Assembly (NCBI RefSeq): GCF_007859755.1
Contig: NZ_SJPF01000001.1
Span: 980,082-1,044,081, forward strand
Reading direction: 5' to 3'
DNA: 64,000 nt
DNA from: Blastopirellula retiformator
Lineage (GTDB): Bacteria; Planctomycetota; Planctomycetia; Pirellulales; Pirellulaceae
The notes under the pieces are model-generated. The model was given only the letters and a program-made list of their open reading frames with translations, searched no databases and was not told the origin of the DNA. This document shows, one piece after another, positions 31,558-39,260 of the stretch. Every line of letters begins with the position of its first letter. Positions within the stretch are counted from its first letter, which is position 1. The position numbers and the translations under genes were made by a program.

Positions 31558-32109
31558 CTAGATCTCTAGCGTTTTGTTCGTCAGGCGTTGATCGTCGCGA
31601 ATGCCGTGCAGCAGGATCTCTTTCAGCTCATCGCGACTGTGGCAGACTGCCCGAGGTTGGACCGTTTCGGGAGCGTCCTCGAAGTTCGCCTCTCGGAGGC
31701 TGACCGACGAACCATCCCGTTCCGAAGTCAGGATCAAGTTGCCGGCGTCGAGAATGCTGATCAGAAAATCGAGCAACGCAGGCGTCAGCTCATGTTCGAC
31801 GTGGATCTTAAATTCTTCGACGTATTGCGGCTGGTAGTTGTCGCAAGTGACCTGGATGTTGGCGCCGTCGGTCAATCGGAGAAAACCGCGGGCGCCTTCG
31901 ATCGGCTGCCCGGCCGCTTCGTCCAGAAGGGCCTTTACCGCCGTTTGTTCGGACGGCGTCATCGGCAAGTGTGGACGCTCCATCACGAGCTGACCGGTCG
32001 CGGGATCGATTCGTTCGATCGGGTCGCAACTCCAGTGTCGTGACGAAAGTCGGAGTTCGAGGCTCATTTCGAATCGCTCCGGTGGAGGAAAAGGTTCACT
32101 TCCACTCAT
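31558..32109 (-). CDS. Hypothetical protein, 183 residues
   Basis: No family recognised. It is a soluble protein with alternating charged strands and helices. The middle (LRLTDGANIQVTCDNYQPQY, then LTPALLDFLISILDAGNLIL) looks folded, and the C-terminus is acidic to basic. The ATG at 32109 and an internal ATG at 32067 (MSLELRLSS, with GGAGC nine bases upstream) are both possible starts. It follows the aminotransferase gene after 36 bases on the same strand and is probably co-transcribed with it. Confidence 0.6.
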   Translation of the reverse strand: MSGSEPFPPPERFEMSLELRLSSRHWSCDPIERIDPATGQLVMERPHLPMTPSEQTAVKALLDEAAGQPIEGARGFLRLTDGANIQVTCDNYQPQYVEEFKIHVEHELTPALLDFLISILDAGNLILTSERDGSSVSLREANFEDAPETVQPRAVCHSRDELKEILLHGIRDDQRLTNKTLEI

Positions 32110-32145: not shown

Positions 32146-33252
32146 TTAACCTTTCGCCAACTTCCGCAGCGTCTCGACCCCCCGTTTCAGCGTCTCGTCC
32201 GCAGCGGCGTACGAAATGCGGAAGTGCGAATCCTGCCGACTGAAGATATTGCCCGGGATAATCAGTAGGTTGTTCTCGATCGCTTTGGTGACGAACTCGC
32301 TGCCCGTTCCCCATGGGGCTTTGGGGAAGATGTAGAAGGCGCCGTCGGGACGCGAAACTTCGTAAAGATCGCTGATTCCTTCCAGCATCATGTCGCGCTT
32401 CCGGGCATAGGCGGCGACATGCTCTCCCATGTCGACATCCAGCGCGGCGGCGCTGGCCCATTGGGCTGGTTGCGGAGCACAGACGAACGTGTACTGCTGC
32501 AACTTGATCATCGTTTCGATCACCGCCGACGGACCGTGCACGTACCCAACGCGCCAGCCGGTCATGCCATAGCTCTTGGAGAACCCGTCGATCACGATCG
32601 TTTGATCATTGAACTTGGCCGGCGAAACGAACTCGCCGTAGGTGAACGTCCGATAGATCTCGTCCGAGATCAGGGCGATGTTCTTCTCCGCCGCCAATTT
32701 GGCCAACCCTTCGACTTCCGCCGCCGAGGCGACGACGCCGGTCGGATTGGCGGGACTGTTCAGCAGGATCAGCTTCGTCTTGTCGGTGATGGCGGTTCGC
32801 ACCTTTTCCAGGTCGATACGGAAGTCAGGATAGGTGCTCAACACCACCGGCACGCCGCCGACCAGTTTCACCAGCGATTCGTACATCACGAAGTAGGGAT
32901 CGAAGATGACTACTTCGTCCCCAGGATTGACCAGGGCCAGCATTGACAAGACGAGCCCGCCGCTGGTGCCGGAGCAAACGAAATTGGTGCGGTCGCTATG
33001 GCCGAATTCGGCGTCGATCGCGGCCTGCAGTTTGTCGCGGAGGACCGGCATGCCTTGCGTCAGCGCGTAGCCATTCTTCCCCTGGTTGATCGCCGAGATC
33101 GCCGCCTCTTTGACCGGATCCGGAACGTCAAAGTCCGGCTGCCCGATCGAGAGGTTGATCGGGTCGGTCATTTTCGCCGCCAGGTCAAAAACTTTGCGAA
33201 TGCCGCTAGAGTCAAAAGCGGCGGTACGATCGGCGATCCAAGGATGGCTCAT
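32146..33252 (-). CDS. PLP-dependent aminotransferase, class I/II (AspAT-like)
   Basis: A 368-residue fold-type I aminotransferase. The N-terminal INLSIGQPDFDVPDPVKEAA segment, the NPANPTG-like LNSPANPTG, ALISDEIYRTFTY and the PLP-lysine motif IDGFSKSYGMTGWRVGY are all present. The C-terminal Arg region (HFRISYAAADETL) for the substrate carboxylate is also there. This group includes aspartate and aromatic aminotransferases; the exact substrate cannot be told. It lies 74 bases downstream of the phosphohexomutase-like gene on the same strand, so the two may share a transcript. Confidence 0.9.
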   Translation of the reverse strand: MSHPWIADRTAAFDSSGIRKVFDLAAKMTDPINLSIGQPDFDVPDPVKEAAISAINQGKNGYALTQGMPVLRDKLQAAIDAEFGHSDRTNFVCSGTSGGLVLSMLALVNPGDEVVIFDPYFVMYESLVKLVGGVPVVLSTYPDFRIDLEKVRTAITDKTKLILLNSPANPTGVVASAAEVEGLAKLAAEKNIALISDEIYRTFTYGEFVSPAKFNDQTIVIDGFSKSYGMTGWRVGYVHGPSAVIETMIKLQQYTFVCAPQPAQWASAAALDVDMGEHVAAYARKRDMMLEGISDLYEVSRPDGAFYIFPKAPWGTGSEFVTKAIENNLLIIPGNIFSRQDSHFRISYAAADETLKRGVETLRKLAKG

Positions 33253-33326: not shown

Positions 33327-34526
33327 CTAGATCAACTGACTCGACAAGCTGCGGTCATCCCGGCTAAGGCGGGTCAAGAGGAGCGTTACGACCCCCAAAG
33401 CGTCGGCCGTCGGCAACTGGTTTCGCCACCAATAGCGACCGCTCGGCTCGACGCCAAGTTGGCAATCTTGCTCCAAAATCGTGGCGAACATGGCGCCGCG
33501 ACCCGCGGCGGAGGGAACATGAGTGACGCCAGCGGGCGGTTCCAGCGGCGAGGCGACCCGGAGCGGTCGATCTTCCCAAGCGGCCGCTTCTTCGATCAGC
33601 AGGGGTGACAGTCGCGACGGCAGCACGCGATAACCGCGCTCTTCAAACACCTCGATCGACTCGCCGCAGCCGTCGATCCAAACGCCAAAATCGGCCTGCT
33701 GCCGCTGGATCGCCGCGGCAACGCGGACGCTTCGCTCGCCGCCGCTGGGGAGGACCGCCAGTTCGCAATTCGAGCGGTCGATCAATTGCCGCAGTTGGCG
33801 AATGGCGCCAAGCGACGGCGACTGCGCCACGAGCCGCAGGGGACGCAGCGCACGATGGTACGCGGCGTACCGCTGGAGGTAGGCCGACCCCAATTCGATT
33901 TCGCGCAGCACGCCTTGCCGTCGGGCCGGAGCGAGCGGCTGATGCGGAGCAAGGTGGCGCTGCAGTCGCGCCAGTTGCTCTTCGGTAAATGGGGCGCCGC
34001 CGCCGCCAAACAACGCAACCGCGATCTGTCGCAGGTCGCCGCTGGGCGTGCTTAGCAATAGGCCGCCGGCCAGGTTGCGTTGATCGATCGTCCAGGCAAC
34101 TTCGGCGCAGGTCGGATCGGTCGCCAATTGAACGTCCAGGCCTGCTCTGCGCCAGATCGCGACGATCGCTTCGGCCTGATCGACGGCGGCCGAGTGGGCG
34201 GTCGCCAACAGCAAAGGGGCGCTGAGCGGCTGCGTTAAACAGCGACAGAAGGCGGCGGCGATCTGGGCGGCCACCGTCGGCGAGAACTCGTGGAAGAGGT
34301 CGGCGACGAGGCCTTCGTGCTGAAACAGCTGGGTGATGGGCGCCTGGGGAGGGACTTGTCGCCAAGCGTCGGCGATCTGGGCGGGGACGCCTGACTGGTC
34401 CTCACGCTGGGGACAATTGCGACACGCCGGATAGAACTGGGCTAACCGCGCTAAATGGGCGCCCCGGCTGATCGAGACAGTCTCGCCAGGGCAGCAAAAG
34501 GTCGCGTTTTCCCGCTGTTCGTTCAT
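33327..34526 (-). CDS. Degenerate phosphohexomutase-like protein (probable pseudoenzyme)
   Basis: A 399-residue protein whose plan follows the four-domain alpha-D-phosphohexomutase fold (phosphomannomutase/phosphoglucomutase), but with each active-site loop altered. The phosphoserine loop, normally ITASHNP, reads LLSTPSGD (157-164). The metal loop, normally DGDGDR, reads DGCGES (285-290) inside ADFGVWIDGCGESIEVFEERG-like context. The C-terminal sugar/phosphate loop, normally GGEQSGH, reads GVEPSGR (358-364), followed by TADALGVVTLLL as in active enzymes. The N-terminus adds a cysteine cluster (Cys11, Cys12, Cys35, Cys38; CRNCP) that could bind zinc. Mutase activity is unlikely; a binding or regulatory role is inferred. 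The frame is intact, so it is not a decayed pseudogene. Confidence 0.65.
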   Translation of the reverse strand: MNEQRENATFCCPGETVSISRGAHLARLAQFYPACRNCPQREDQSGVPAQIADAWRQVPPQAPITQLFQHEGLVADLFHEFSPTVAAQIAAAFCRCLTQPLSAPLLLATAHSAAVDQAEAIVAIWRRAGLDVQLATDPTCAEVAWTIDQRNLAGGLLLSTPSGDLRQIAVALFGGGGAPFTEEQLARLQRHLAPHQPLAPARRQGVLREIELGSAYLQRYAAYHRALRPLRLVAQSPSLGAIRQLRQLIDRSNCELAVLPSGGERSVRVAAAIQRQQADFGVWIDGCGESIEVFEERGYRVLPSRLSPLLIEEAAAWEDRPLRVASPLEPPAGVTHVPSAAGRGAMFATILEQDCQLGVEPSGRYWWRNQLPTADALGVVTLLLTRLSRDDRSLSSQLI

Positions 34527-34739
34527 TGTGCGGGCACTCTACTCTGGCGGCGGCCTTGAGGTCAATCGAAACGTCTCCGGAAATGCCGATTCTGCGGCCG
34601 ATGGCGACGGTAGCGCCTAGATTTTTGCACGATTTCGTGCGTGAAAGATGGCATCCGAACGATTTGTCATTAGCTGCGACCTACCTTTTGGGGTCAGACG
34701 CATTACTTGCGCGCTCGATAACAGTTAGTGAGAAATTCG

Positions 34740-35162
34740 ATGAACCAACGTCGCGGAGCTCGATATGTCGATCCTTCGGTGCAAGGAGGGATCGTGCTGC
34801 GGATGCTGTTTTACTGGACCACGTTCTTCCTCGTCGGTCTGGCGATCGCATTCGCCGTGCAGGTTCTCTGCAATCCGTTGGAGCCGATGAGCGCCCACCT
34901 GGCGTCGGTTTGGCAAAACCAGGGGCCGTTTATCCTGGCGGCGTTCTGTCTGCTGCCGATTTACACGTTCGACCTGATTCGCTTCAGTCATCGCTTTGTC
35001 GGTCCGATTATCCGTTTTCGCCGCGTCGTCAATGAAGCGGTCGAAGGGGACGTTCCCCCGCCATTTAATCTGCGGGACAAGGACTACTGGAAGGAATTCG
35101 CTGTGGACCTAAACCGGCTGTTCGATCGTCTGCGTAGCGGACGAGCGCCGCAGGAGAGCTAG
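34740..35162 (+). CDS. Small membrane protein (HAMP-like) at head of Tad-like cluster
   Basis: A 140-residue protein with two membrane segments (about residues 21-42 and 64-82). A cytoplasmic helical tail follows (GPIIRFRRVVNEAVEGDVPP, then DYWKEFAVDLNRLFDRL). The tail resembles a HAMP signalling linker without any output domain. The ATG at 34740 or a GTG four codons upstream may start it. It is followed three bases later by the TadE-like gene, so it belongs to this pilus-like cluster, perhaps as a membrane scaffold. The family assignment is tentative. Confidence 0.6.
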   Translation: MNQRRGARYVDPSVQGGIVLRMLFYWTTFFLVGLAIAFAVQVLCNPLEPMSAHLASVWQNQGPFILAAFCLLPIYTFDLIRFSHRFVGPIIRFRRVVNEAVEGDVPPPFNLRDKDYWKEFAVDLNRLFDRLRSGRAPQES

Positions 35163-35165
35163 ACG

Positions 35166-35564
35166 ATGCGACGCCCCAAGACAAATCGATCGCGACGCGG
35201 TATGGCGGTGGCCGAATTGGCCATTTGTTTGCCGGTCGTCGTGCTGATCCTGATGGCGGCGATTCAGGGCGCCGAGATGATGTTCCTGAAACAATCGGTT
35301 GCGATCGCCGCGTACGAAGGTTGTCGCGCCGCACTACAGCCCAACGCCACCAATCAACATGCGCTGAGCGCCACTTCGTCGGTCCTGGCCGATCGCAATA
35401 TTCAAGGGGCGAATATCGACCACTCCAATTTTGAAAACGCGAAAACCGGCAAAGACGTGACGATTTCGATCACGATTCCGGTCGCCGCGAATTCGACCCT
35501 GCAAGGTTGGATGTTTTCGCCACCGACGATTACGTCATCGGTCACGATGATGAAAGAGTACTAA
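35166..35564 (+). CDS. TadE-like pilus assembly protein
   Basis: A 132-residue pseudopilin-like protein. It starts with a basic leader (MRRPKTNRSRRGMAVAELAI), followed by one hydrophobic helix (ICLPVVVLILMAAIQGAEMMF). The pattern SRRG-x3-AELA is the TadE signature. The remaining ~80 residues form a short extracytoplasmic domain with Ala- and Ser-rich strands. TadE proteins are minor components of Flp/Tad pili, processed by TadV-type prepilin peptidase. It lies in an operon-like run with a second TadE and a TadG; no ATPase or secretin gene is in the window. Confidence 0.8.
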   Translation: MRRPKTNRSRRGMAVAELAICLPVVVLILMAAIQGAEMMFLKQSVAIAAYEGCRAALQPNATNQHALSATSSVLADRNIQGANIDHSNFENAKTGKDVTISITIPVAANSTLQGWMFSPPTITSSVTMMKEY

Positions 35565-35574
35565 GAGGCGTCCT

Positions 35575-36111
35575 ATGTCGCATTACAAACCACAATTCGC
35601 CATTTGCCGCCTGGCCGAGCGTTGTCGAGCAGGCGTGCGTCGTTGCCTGGGAGCTGAGGCGAACTGTCGCAAGACGACGCTGGCGCCGAAACGCATTCGA
35701 ACGCAGCGGCGTAGCGGTCTTCCGCATCGAACCGGCGCGGCGTTAGTTGAGTTGGCGTTCGCCGGCCCTATCCTGTTTATGTTCATCCTGGCCTGCTTTG
35801 AGTTTGGTCGTTTGACGATGATTCGCCACACCGCGGACAACGCAGCGTACGAAGCGGCCCGCTATGCAATGGTGCCGGGAGCGACTTCGGCCGAAGCGGT
35901 TGACAAGGCGACGCAATTGCTGGCGACGGTCGGCGCGCGGAAAGTCGAAGTCGACGTCAATCCGAAAGTGCTGGCCCCAGAGACGAAGACAATCACCGTG
36001 ACGGTTCGCGTTCCGATTGCCGGCAACAGTTGGGTGGCGCCCAAGTATTTCAGCAGCTACGCGATCGAAGCGACCTCGCACCTGGCGACAGAACGCTACA
36101 ACCCCGATTAG
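35575..36111 (+). CDS. Second TadE-like protein with long basic N-terminus
   Basis: A 178-residue relative of the previous gene. The TadE helix GAALVELAFAGPILFMFILA begins only at about residue 54. It is preceded by an unusual Cys/Arg-rich stretch (CRLAERCRAGVRRCLGAEAN). That leader may be partly non-coding if translation starts at a later non-ATG codon, but no in-frame ATG exists between. The mature domain contains the typical EFGRLTMIRHTADNAAYEA block. Ten bases separate it from the first TadE and three from the TadG-like gene, so all are co-transcribed. Confidence 0.75.
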   Translation: MSHYKPQFAICRLAERCRAGVRRCLGAEANCRKTTLAPKRIRTQRRSGLPHRTGAALVELAFAGPILFMFILACFEFGRLTMIRHTADNAAYEAARYAMVPGATSAEAVDKATQLLATVGARKVEVDVNPKVLAPETKTITVTVRVPIAGNSWVAPKYFSSYAIEATSHLATERYNPD

Positions 36112-36114
36112 TAA

Positions 36115-37230
36115 ATGACGTTCAAGATGAAATCTCGAAACAAACGCCCGGCAAATCGTCGCCGCGGCGCCATCCTTATCCTGGTCGCATGTCTGCTGCC
36201 GGTCATTTTGTGGATGGCGGCGTTCTGCGTCGATGTGGCGTACATGCAGCTGACCCGCACCGAACTGCGGATCGCAACCGACGCCGCCGCACGCGCTGGC
36301 GCACGAACCTTGAGTTTGGAGCAAGACGCAAGTCTGGCTCACGCCGCCGCGATTGAATACGCCGCCAAGAACAACGTCGCCGGCAATACGCTGACGCTCG
36401 CCGATAGCGACGTGCAGATCGGCTTGTCGGTCCGAAAGGACGACGAGGGCCGTTTCGAGTTCTCGCCCGGCGGTACGCTGCTCAACTCCATTAACGTGAC
36501 GGGATGTCGAACGCAGCAAGCGCCCGATGGCGCCGTTCGGCTCTATTTGACTCCAATTTTTGGGCATGAGTTTTTTCAACCGGTCGCCGACGCGACCGCC
36601 TCGCAGATCGACCGCGACATTGCGTTGGTGGTCGATCGGAGCGGTTCGATGACGTGGCGTATCGATCGTAGGACCTACGAGTACGGCTGGCGAAGTAACG
36701 ACCCTGTTCCAGCCCGAGCCCGCTGGTGGGCGCTGGTCGATTCGGTCGACGGCTTTCTGTCGGAATTGGAATCGACGCCCCAACTTGAGCTGGTTTCGTT
36801 ATCGACCTACAACAGCGGCGCATCGATTAACAAAAACCTGACCGACAAGTACTCGAAGATCTCGAAAGCCCTCGACAAATATTCGAAACACTATCCCGAC
36901 GGTTCGACCAATATCACCGCCGGAATGGATCGCGGGATCCAAACGCTGCAGAACAAGAAATACGCGCGTCCCTACGCGTCGAAAACGATGGTGGTGATGA
37001 CGGATGGTAACCACAACTACGGCAGCAGCCCAACCAACGCCGCCTATGATGCGGCCGAGAACGACATCGTGGTCCATACGATCACCTATAGCAACAGCGC
37101 CAATCAATACTTGATGCGAGAAGTCGCCCGGATCGGCGGAGGCCAGCATTGGCACGCTCCCGGAGAAGAAGACTTGGAAGAAATCTTTCGTGAGATCGCC
37201 CGCAACGCACCGACGTTGTTGACGTATTAA
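36115..37230 (+). CDS. TadG-like protein with von Willebrand factor A domain
   Basis: A 371-residue protein. The N-terminal TadG/Flp-type helix is [20 protein letters not shown] (about 17-36), followed by the [19 protein letters not shown] segment. At about 166 the VWA domain starts with the metal-ion-dependent adhesion site DRSGSM, and continues through the Thr/Asp positions ([25 protein letters not shown]). TadG proteins with VWA domains are surface-exposed and mediate adhesion or pilus anchoring. It is the last gene of the cluster. The MCP gene starts 75 bases later after its own RBS. Confidence 0.82.
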
Positions 37231-37304
37231 CCTTGTTCGCCCTCAGGCGACGACCCCTTAGAGTCCCAGACCAAACTTTTACTTTTGCGGCAGGAGCGAA
37301 TAAA

Positions 37305-39260
37305 ATGGCTAGTGCAGTAGTTCTTGAGAACCCGAAGACCGAGAAGAAGTCGAACAGCGCCACAGCGCTGCGCCAGGAGCTGGAATCGCTCAAGGCCGAA
37401 GTCGCGGCGATCAACAAATCGCAAGCGGTGATCGAATTCGAGTTGGACGGTACGATCATCACGGCCAACGACAACTTCCTGGACGCCGTCGGCTACTCGC
37501 TGGGCGAGATCCAAGGGAAGCATCATCAGATGTTCGTCTCGGCCGAAGTCGCTCGCAGCGGCGAATACCGCCAGTTCTGGGATCGTCTGAAAAATGGCCA
37601 ATATGACGCCGGCGAATACCAGCGGTTCGGCAAGGGAGGAAAGGAAATCTGGATCCAGGCCTCTTACAATCCGATTCTGGATGAAAATGGTCGCCCGGTG
37701 AAGGTGATCAAGTTCGCCTCGGACATCACGGCCGAGAAAAACCGCGCCGCCGATTGCGAAGGCCAGATCGCCGCGATCAGCAAATCGCAAGCGGTGATCG
37801 AGTTCAACACGGATGGGACGATCATTCGCGCCAATGACAACTTCCTGCAGACGGTTGGCTATACCCTGCCAGAAATCGTTGGTCAACATCACCGCATGTT
37901 CGTCGAAGACGAGTATGCCCGCAGTCGCGACTACCAGGAATTCTGGAACCGTCTGGGCCGTGGTGAGTACGGTTCCGGCGAATACAAACGGGTCGGCAAC
38001 GGCGGCAAAGAGATCTGGATTCAAGCCTCCTACAACCCGATTTTCGATCTAAATGGCAAGCCGTGTAAGGTGGTCAAATATGCCACCGACATCACCGCTC
38101 AGAAACTGGAAAGCGCCAACTTCTCTGGCCAGATCGCAGCGATCAGCAAGTCGCAGGCGGTGATCGAATTCAACATGGACGGGACGGTTATTGACGCCAA
38201 CGACAATTTCCTGGGCGCCGTCGACTATTCGCGTTCGGAAATCGTCGGTCAGCATCACCGGATGTTCGTTGAAGACGATTACGCCAGAAGCCGCGACTAC
38301 CAGGATTTCTGGGCTCGGCTGAACCGCGGCGAGTTTGACTCGGGCGAATACAAGCGAATTGGCAAAGGCGGGAAAGAAATCTGGATCCAGGCTTCCTACA
38401 ATCCGATCTTCGACCTCAACGGCAAGCCGTTCAAAGTGGTCAAATACGCCTCGGACATCACCGCCCAGGTTAACCTGCGTCACGACATGGCGACGTTGAT
38501 TGAAGACGTGAACGAGAACGCGAACCAGTTCAGCGCTACTTCCGGCACGGTCAGCGAAACCTCGCAGATGCTTGCTCAAGGCGCCCAGACGCAAAGCGCC
38601 GCCGTGGAAGAGATCAGCGCTTCGACGCAAGAGTTGATCTCGTCGATTAGCGGCATTCGCGATCGTTCGTCGGAAACCAATCGTCTGTCGGCCGACACCA
38701 ATCAGATCGCCGTCGAAGGTGGTCAGGCGGTCACCAAGTCGGGCGAAGCGATGGACCTGATCAAGGCCTCATCGGAACAGATCAGCGAGATTATTCAGGT
38801 CATCTCGGAAATCGCCAGCCAGACCAACCTGTTGGCCTTGAACGCGGCGATCGAAGCGGCTCGCGCTGGCGAACATGGTCTCGGCTTTGCGGTCGTCGCC
38901 GACGAAGTTCGCAAATTGGCGGAACGATCGAGCGATGCGGCGAAGGAGATTTCGTCGTTGATCAAAGAGTCGACCTCACGCGTCAACAACGGCGTCGAGC
39001 TGAGCGCGCAGGCCGGAAACGCCCTGCAGCGGATTGTCGCTGCGGTCGAATCGACCTCGGGTAAGATCACCGAGATCGCCATCGCCGCCGACGAGCAGAT
39101 GAATATGGCGAACGAAGTTTACGGCGCCATCCAGCAAGTTGCCGATGTGACCGAGCAGGCCACCGCCGCCAGCGAAGAACTGGCCGCCAGCAGCGAAGAA
39201 TTGGGCGCGCAAGCGGTCGTCCTCCGCGACCTGGTCGACAACTTCGGCAAAAAGAATTAG
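37305..39260 (+). CDS. Soluble methyl-accepting chemotaxis protein with three tandem PAS domains
   Basis: A 651-residue cytoplasmic chemoreceptor without membrane segments. Three near-identical PAS/PAC modules (about residues 39-143, 161-265, 283-387) share SQAVIEF, DGT(I/V)[21 protein letters not shown] and a final DIT. They repeat every 122 residues, i.e. exactly 366 bp. The C-terminal MCP signalling domain has the hairpin tip [20 protein letters not shown] followed by [20 protein letters not shown]. The start at 37305 has AGGAG nine bases upstream. The PAS domains probably bind haem, flavin or another cofactor; the ligand is unknown. It presumably signals to CheA for the flagella encoded in this window. 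A strong terminator follows. Confidence 0.92.

Follow-up and report, generated by a model that had tools for sequence, protein, structure and literature searches.

A phosphohexomutase-fold protein of Planctomycetota with a predicted zinc module and a putative ancient loss of catalysis

To our knowledge, pseudoenzymes of the phosphohexomutase superfamily are known only from vertebrates, where they are represented by PGM5, and we know of no zinc module of the kind described below in either PGM5 or GlmM. PGM5 presumably arose independently of the family considered here, and GlmM is an active enzyme. PGM5 (aciculin) is described as binding substrate without activity and as an inactive phosphohexomutase retained for a non-catalytic role, in which the present protein would resemble it; PGM5 differs in its four domains, its phosphorylated Ser and its retained substrate binding, and in being eukaryotic (PMC7761743). 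GlmM inhibits the c-di-AMP cyclase CdaA (also CdaA/DacA) and still forms a complex with CdaA when it lacks domain 4, i.e. a mutase body can serve as a regulatory binder with domain 4 being dispensable for the complex (PMC8573169). The nearest solved fold over domains I-III is the Xanthomonas citri phosphoglucomutase 5bmn, a full mutase of 448 residues. A literature search, with subscription papers and preprints outside its scope, revealed among the matches listed no bacterial or planctomycete phosphohexomutase pseudoenzyme, no zinc-bearing phosphomannomutase and no study naming the gene. The host phylum, Planctomycetota, has many essential genes of no known function; for Planctopirus limnophila, this is reported for 151 of 748 essential genes (PMC10632474).

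The window, that is the whole stretch of 64,000 nt from Blastopirellula retiformator that was analysed, encodes the protein in an ORF of 399 aa on the minus strand, which is complete from the ATG at 34526 to the stop at 33327, as a preliminary description of this DNA had claimed. An overview of the features is given in Table 1. The gene is present in all four genomes of the genus with 63-72% identity and also in Blastopirellula marina DSM 3645 (L002). A search of 241 Pirellulaceae genomes with the genus alignment resulted in six matches at E<=0.001; the two from outside the genus, G039 and G059, are mutases of the ordinary type, in which TASHNP and DGDGDR are present. Thus, none of the 237 Pirellulaceae genomes from other genera yielded a member of the family. 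Among 396 Pirellulales genomes, the genus profile matched at least 47 at E<=0.01 and at least 38 below 1e-10, both numbers being lower bounds because four candidates per genome were scored. Of these 38 genomes, 34 represent families other than that of the genus, and none of the listed Pirellulales matches below 1e-10 contains internal stops. Based on a 32-row alignment, the family was also found in f21, a sister group of the same class, with 27 matching genomes; the ORFs of 21 f21 loci (L078-L098) were read and all contain the N-terminal module described below. The same alignment matched 372 of 392 genomes, for many of which the aligned part starts at about column 50, and the partial aligners L103, L180-L184, L187 and L188 were recognized on reading as ordinary mutases.

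Table 1 Features of the locus of the putative dead mutase in the window
Feature	Position	Strand	Basis
Whole gene: putative zinc-module phosphohexomutase-fold pseudoenzyme, 399 aa	33327..34526	-	ORF, genus conservation, model
Predicted N-terminal zinc module, residues 9-44, C12-x11-H24-x10-C35-x2-C38	34395..34502	-	Alignment columns
Domain I of the predicted phosphohexomutase fold, residues 67-200 (border by eye)	33927..34328	-	Model and Foldseek alignment
Former phosphoserine loop STPSGD (159-164) for TASHNP, Ser column = Pro161	34035..34052	-	Alignment A4
Former metal loop DGCGES (285-290) for DGDADR; Asp retained at the first, Cys at the second and Glu at the third metal position	33657..33674	-	Alignment A4
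Sugar-binding loop GVEPSGR (358-364) for GGELSGH; E360, S362 and G363 kept, His to Arg364	33435..33455	-	Alignment A4
C-terminal S-x2-D-x3-S signature, end of domain III, no domain IV after it	33342..33365	-	Alignment
Class-I aminotransferase, 74 bp downstream, possible operon partner	32146..33252	-	PF00155, E 5e-61

Single-sequence searches yielded sub-threshold phosphohexomutase matches only (Pfam domain III, E 0.013; NCBIfam, E 0.04), and no family name for the window protein was found in the libraries searched (Pfam, NCBIfam and PDB). The top PDB sequence matches were engrailed homeodomains at E 0.002, which were taken as chance; mutases followed from 0.08 onwards. A structure model based on five close dead sequences alone reached a pLDDT of 34.6, and a model based on a 51-row alignment reached a pLDDT of 93.7 and a pTM of 0.88. 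Foldseek assigned 87 PDB matches at E<=0.001 to the latter model, the best 50 of which all belong to the phosphohexomutase superfamily, with 5bmn at the top (E 9.2e-23, TM 0.77, 21% identity). Model, Foldseek and profile agree on three alpha/beta domains, corresponding to domains I-III, in this order. Since the alignment of the confident model contained five intact mutases, homology was retested with a profile built from the 46 dead rows only, which were kept in their co-alignment with the intact ones. All 24 mutase targets were found (E 9e-69 to 4e-28), compared to none of 19 shuffled controls; the targets had been preselected by their match to the 51-row profile and include the eroded L176 as well as L011 and L013, which are one gene. 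Together with the conservation of the family over two orders, this argues against a chance similarity; a chance ORF was likewise ruled out by the invariant metal-ligand columns and the dN/dS values given below. Three other genes of the superfamily are located in the same genome, and the uneven matches of the dead-only profile to these genes (the GlmM-like gene of L011 and L013, E 5e-30; forward ORF of L011, 3e-4; L012, E 78) suggest that the dead family lies near the PMM/GlmM branches. By predicted fold and by descent as judged from the profiles, the window protein is a member of the alpha-D-phosphohexomutase (PMM/PGM/GlmM) superfamily. The block order noted in the preliminary description is hence in agreement with structure prediction, Foldseek and profiles, none of which pointed to a different fold.

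The catalytic residues were compared in alignment A4, which consists of 51 rows, namely 46 dead ones (including the window protein) and five intact mutases, from which L102 was omitted. Represented are 28 of 34 Pirellulales genomes outside the genus (without G313, G446, G474, G509, G518 and G521) and 14 of 21 f21 loci (without L081, L085, L087, L088, L089, L093 and L097). The active-site columns were labelled with what we take to be the corresponding residue numbers of Pseudomonas aeruginosa. In the window protein, the domain-I Arg column is occupied by V74, the phosphoserine column by P161 and the Lys column after the Ser loop by A171. D285, C287 and E289 are found at the three metal Asp columns, S290 at the Arg that follows, and R343 and R364 at the two His columns. 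The roles of the loops were assigned after the phosphohexomutase loops in PMC7761743. As proposed earlier from the letters of the DNA, STPSGD aligns exactly on TASHNP and DGCGES on the metal loop of intact relatives, which is DGDADR here and DGDGDR in the earlier description, so the protein has neither TASHNP or a close variant nor a DGDxDR loop with three Asp. GVEPSGR had been interpreted as the phosphate loop; it is the domain-III sugar-binding loop instead and, compared to GExSGH of the enzymes, retains Glu, Ser and Gly with His changed to Arg. The earlier view that every active-site loop is replaced therefore went too far.

Domain IV and its phosphate-binding loop are missing from the window protein. 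The Pfam domain IV model matched the intact L099, L101 and L104, but neither the window protein nor L048 or L080, and the chain ends 1-32 residues past the S395 column in each of the 46 dead rows. Ser is retained at the Ser column in six dead rows, namely L068 and five from f21, in no case within TASHNP, and the third metal Asp is never Asp (0/46). The sugar-loop Glu is found in four of the 46 dead rows, all from Blastopirellula, which makes a common sugar ligand less likely. D391, on the other hand, is present in 42 of 45 dead rows compared to 0 of 5 intact rows. Within the genus, 17 of 19 positions of the metal loop and 14 of 16 positions of the sugar loop (residues 355-370) are invariant. 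From these columns, the catalytic death of the window protein appears well supported, and the catalytic loss is judged to be ancient and common to the 46 dead rows from two orders.

The N-terminus was previously described as carrying a Cys cluster at residues 11-38. The cluster is present, but C11 is variable and the invariant set consists of C12, H24, C35 and C38, which all 44 dead rows extending to the N-terminus have in common. In the intact rows bearing the module, the His column is Cys (4/4), i.e. one possible metal ligand is swapped for another. The pattern C-x11-[HC]-x10-C-x2-C followed by the mutase fold is found in all dead (44/44) and intact (4/4) rows with an N-terminus. Of the 48 columns with >=80% conservation, 14 fall into residues 12-41, compared to 3.6 expected (P 7e-7), and 33 into domains I-III; several conserved Arg are located in the module. 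Zinc binding by the module is strongly predicted from the ligand pattern, and the suggested zinc site is accordingly judged likely. Searches with the module stretches against Pfam and PDB sequences gave no match, and a small, hitherto undescribed metal module in Planctomycetota is indicated. At a cut-off of E<=10, an N-terminal profile from Blastopirellula only gave matches in 238 of 241 genomes; these were judged to be almost entirely due to chance, and a broader profile was used instead. In 44 chosen genomes, the module profile detected 31 places in 30 genomes. Typically, these are ORFs of 399-608 aa (29/31), which is a mutase-like length, and part of these ORFs were read individually; one place is a weak match broken by stops (G151). 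The remaining place is the N-terminal region of a PEGA-repeat ORF of 1982 aa (L229:4029-9974), which indicates that the module is separable.

The cysteines had also been regarded as an addition to a dead enzyme, but the same module is found on mutases with intact loops in deep-branching Planctomycetota. These proteins (L099, L100, L101, L104, L175, L177-L179, L185 and L186) share with the window protein the module at the same spacing and homologous domains I-III. They differ in a Cys4 instead of a Cys3His set, in intact TASHNP, DGDADR and GELSGH loops, and in the presence of domain IV, found by Pfam in each of the three tested and absent in the window protein. Pfam recognizes their mutase domains and not the module. 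An epimerase/dehydratase-like gene, so classified by Pfam on L143 only, is encoded upstream of the intact zinc-type mutase in three of five loci (L142-L144, not L140 and L141); this fits a role of the intact zinc-type mutases in sugar-nucleotide synthesis.

A third type of relative is found in the f111/f118 order (L176 and L190-L195), where the module, present wherever the N-terminus is available, is joined to an eroded mutase. Six members are full-length or nearly so (L176, L190-L193 and L195), with the ORF of L191 lacking the N-terminus. Their Ser, metal and sugar loops are eroded to differing degrees, L195 having retained a DGDCDR metal loop and the Ser in TGSHH. Unlike the window family, the order has a tail that aligns with domain IV; in L192, the one member tested, this tail was not recognized by the Pfam domain-IV model, which suggests that it has diverged.

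A phylogenetic reconstruction was performed with a mixture model. Not included were 13 rows of A4, namely L073 and L074, which are cut by contig ends, as well as L051, L063, L064, L066, L068, L069, L072, L092, L094, L096 and L098, and the extra rows L008, L011 and L013. The dead rows of the window's class (33 rows) are located on one side of a branch with a support of 100, and the f111/f118 rows group with the intact zinc type. In an early tree, long branches had drawn L176 into the dead clade; once the mixture model was used, further rows of the order were added and long rows were removed, L176 grouped with the zinc type. Constraining all module-bearing rows together improved the likelihood over that of the unconstrained search (AU p 0.74), in agreement with a single origin of the module. 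A constraint joining both dead groups was not rejected (AU p 0.36), so that one or two catalytic losses are compatible with the data; the loss in f111/f118 is possibly independent of that in the window clade.

The gene is under purifying selection. Within the genus, dN/dS is 0.17-0.22 in six of six pairs, calculated for frames from stop to stop that include a few codons before the ATG, and with synonymous distances of 0.94-1.41 in five of the six pairs. For the neighbouring aminotransferase, values of 0.05-0.06 were obtained in the three of six pairs where it was found by pattern, and dN/dS of the dead mutase is thus three to four times higher. This difference, the missing catalytic residues and the absence of the family from the 237 Pirellulaceae genomes outside the genus are what would be expected if a mutase copy were losing its function and had no present role. 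Such decay is nevertheless highly improbable given a dN/dS of about 0.2 in every pair, a catalytic loss common to two orders, the metal-ligand pattern in 44 of 44 rows and the lack of internal stops noted above. The assumption that the gene is maintained is supported by the same dN/dS values and by a loss that is old and shared. Relatives with intact loops were thought to be indicative of recent decay; they do exist, but as distant outgroups.

The evidence tips towards an ancient pseudoenzyme, i.e. a non-catalytic ligand-binding or scaffolding regulator that would work through its zinc module. This is in line with the pseudoenzyme already suggested in the preliminary description and builds on the fold of the model, the old shared loss of catalysis, the purifying selection and the likely zinc site. 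The three other superfamily genes of the genome could act as spare enzymes, which was counted for a non-catalytic role. The ancestor of the protein would have been a complete mutase in which a Cys4 metal module was already present at the N-terminus. Within the window's class, domain IV with the phosphate-binding loop would then have been lost, the phosphoserine replaced and the metal loop remodelled, and one metal-ligand Cys presumably changed to His. The zinc module may dock on a partner or anchor the protein in a complex, and the domain I-III body may bind a sugar phosphate or another anion without turnover, the key part being probably the domain-III sugar loop with the two new Arg, R343 and R364. 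In this way, the protein could report or tune, and the best candidate partner in Pirellulales would be the co-oriented class-I aminotransferase. Zinc occupancy, ligand binding, partner and regulation of the dead mutase are what we infer from the comparisons.

The acidic residues of the metal loop allow another interpretation, in which the protein is a repurposed enzyme that catalyses a different reaction, with a metal held by D285/E289 and phosphate by the new Arg. A DGDGE loop is found in many Pirellulales. The metal loop has remained acidic, with D in 23 of the 28 Pirellulales rows and E as third metal residue in 21 of them, 25 of these rows have Arg at the column of Arg364, and the metal and sugar loops belong to the least variable stretches within the genus. 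However, Blastopirellula has C, S or N as second metal residue, 7 of 14 f21 rows have R as the third, no common nucleophile was seen at the Ser loop across the rows, and the protein lacks domain IV, by which the site is closed in the enzymes, so a new catalytic activity is quite unlikely. Alternatively, the zinc module could serve nucleic-acid binding or general docking, with the mutase body as a ligand-free platform. The module is the best conserved part of the protein and has several conserved Arg, its copy on the unrelated PEGA-repeat ORF may act alone, and a divergent gene for a DNA polymerase III delta subunit (holA-like, by Pfam on L126 of f21 and L110 of Pirellulales only) adjoins the family in 10 of 15 f21 loci. 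Gene neighbourhood of this kind is weak evidence of function, though, and the body seems to matter, as 29 of the 31 module places lie in ORFs of mutase length and domains I-III hold 33 of the 48 conserved columns; a ligand-free platform is therefore somewhat unlikely, if worth keeping in mind.

If the protein is indeed a ligand-binding or scaffolding regulator, it would represent an old bacterial phosphohexomutase pseudoenzyme. Living relatives may reflect a path from the module with intact loops over eroded forms with a domain-IV-like tail to dead forms without domain IV. As a tentative scenario, early zinc-module mutases may have been bifunctional, with the role of the module under stronger selection; catalysis could then have been shed once or twice and the module kept, giving rise to a phylum-specific signalling or scaffolding protein that became linked to a core aminotransferase in Pirellulales. 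Equally tentatively, Planctomycetia would have lost domain IV and the f111/f118 order would have kept a domain-IV-like tail. The family offers a system for asking why an enzyme scaffold persists after catalysis is lost.

The genomic context of the gene differs between the two groups. In 20 of 21 Pirellulales loci examined (three of them from the genus; the exception is L123), the aminotransferase is encoded downstream on the same strand. The distance is -8 to 246 bp in the 18 loci in which the start was located, and no terminator-like site was found on the minus strand between the two genes of the window. In f21, by contrast, the aminotransferase adjoins the gene in 0 of 15 loci. The aminotransferase itself is present in 29 of 29 genomes searched, with 61-80% identity outside the window's genome, and the family is absent from its 1.5-kb flanks in 17 of 17 other Pirellulaceae and in 11 f21 genomes. 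The earlier idea of a partnership with the aminotransferase thus finds support in the Pirellulales loci and not in f21 or the other Pirellulaceae. That the aminotransferase is the original or only partner is unlikely from these numbers, and as it is present with or without the gene, the neighbourhood of the two may be a transcriptional convenience. The holA-like gene lies within the stretch examined in 3 of 20 Pirellulales loci (L105-L124), and its occurrence in both groups hints at an old shared location.

Further genes were observed around the locus. A conserved gene with a DUF11 match, assigned by Pfam on L121 only, is encoded upstream of the dead mutase in ten Pirellulales loci (L107, L110-L112, L115, L116 and L119-L122). 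Downstream of the aminotransferase, the window contains a 183-aa ORF (31558-32109, minus strand) that has no Pfam or NCBIfam match and clusters only with loci of the genus. On the plus strand, divergent TadE/TadG-like pilus-assembly genes and a von Willebrand-type protein were recognized by eye only (34728-37230), followed by a gene that, again by eye only, reads like a PAS-repeat methyl-accepting chemotaxis protein (37233-39260).
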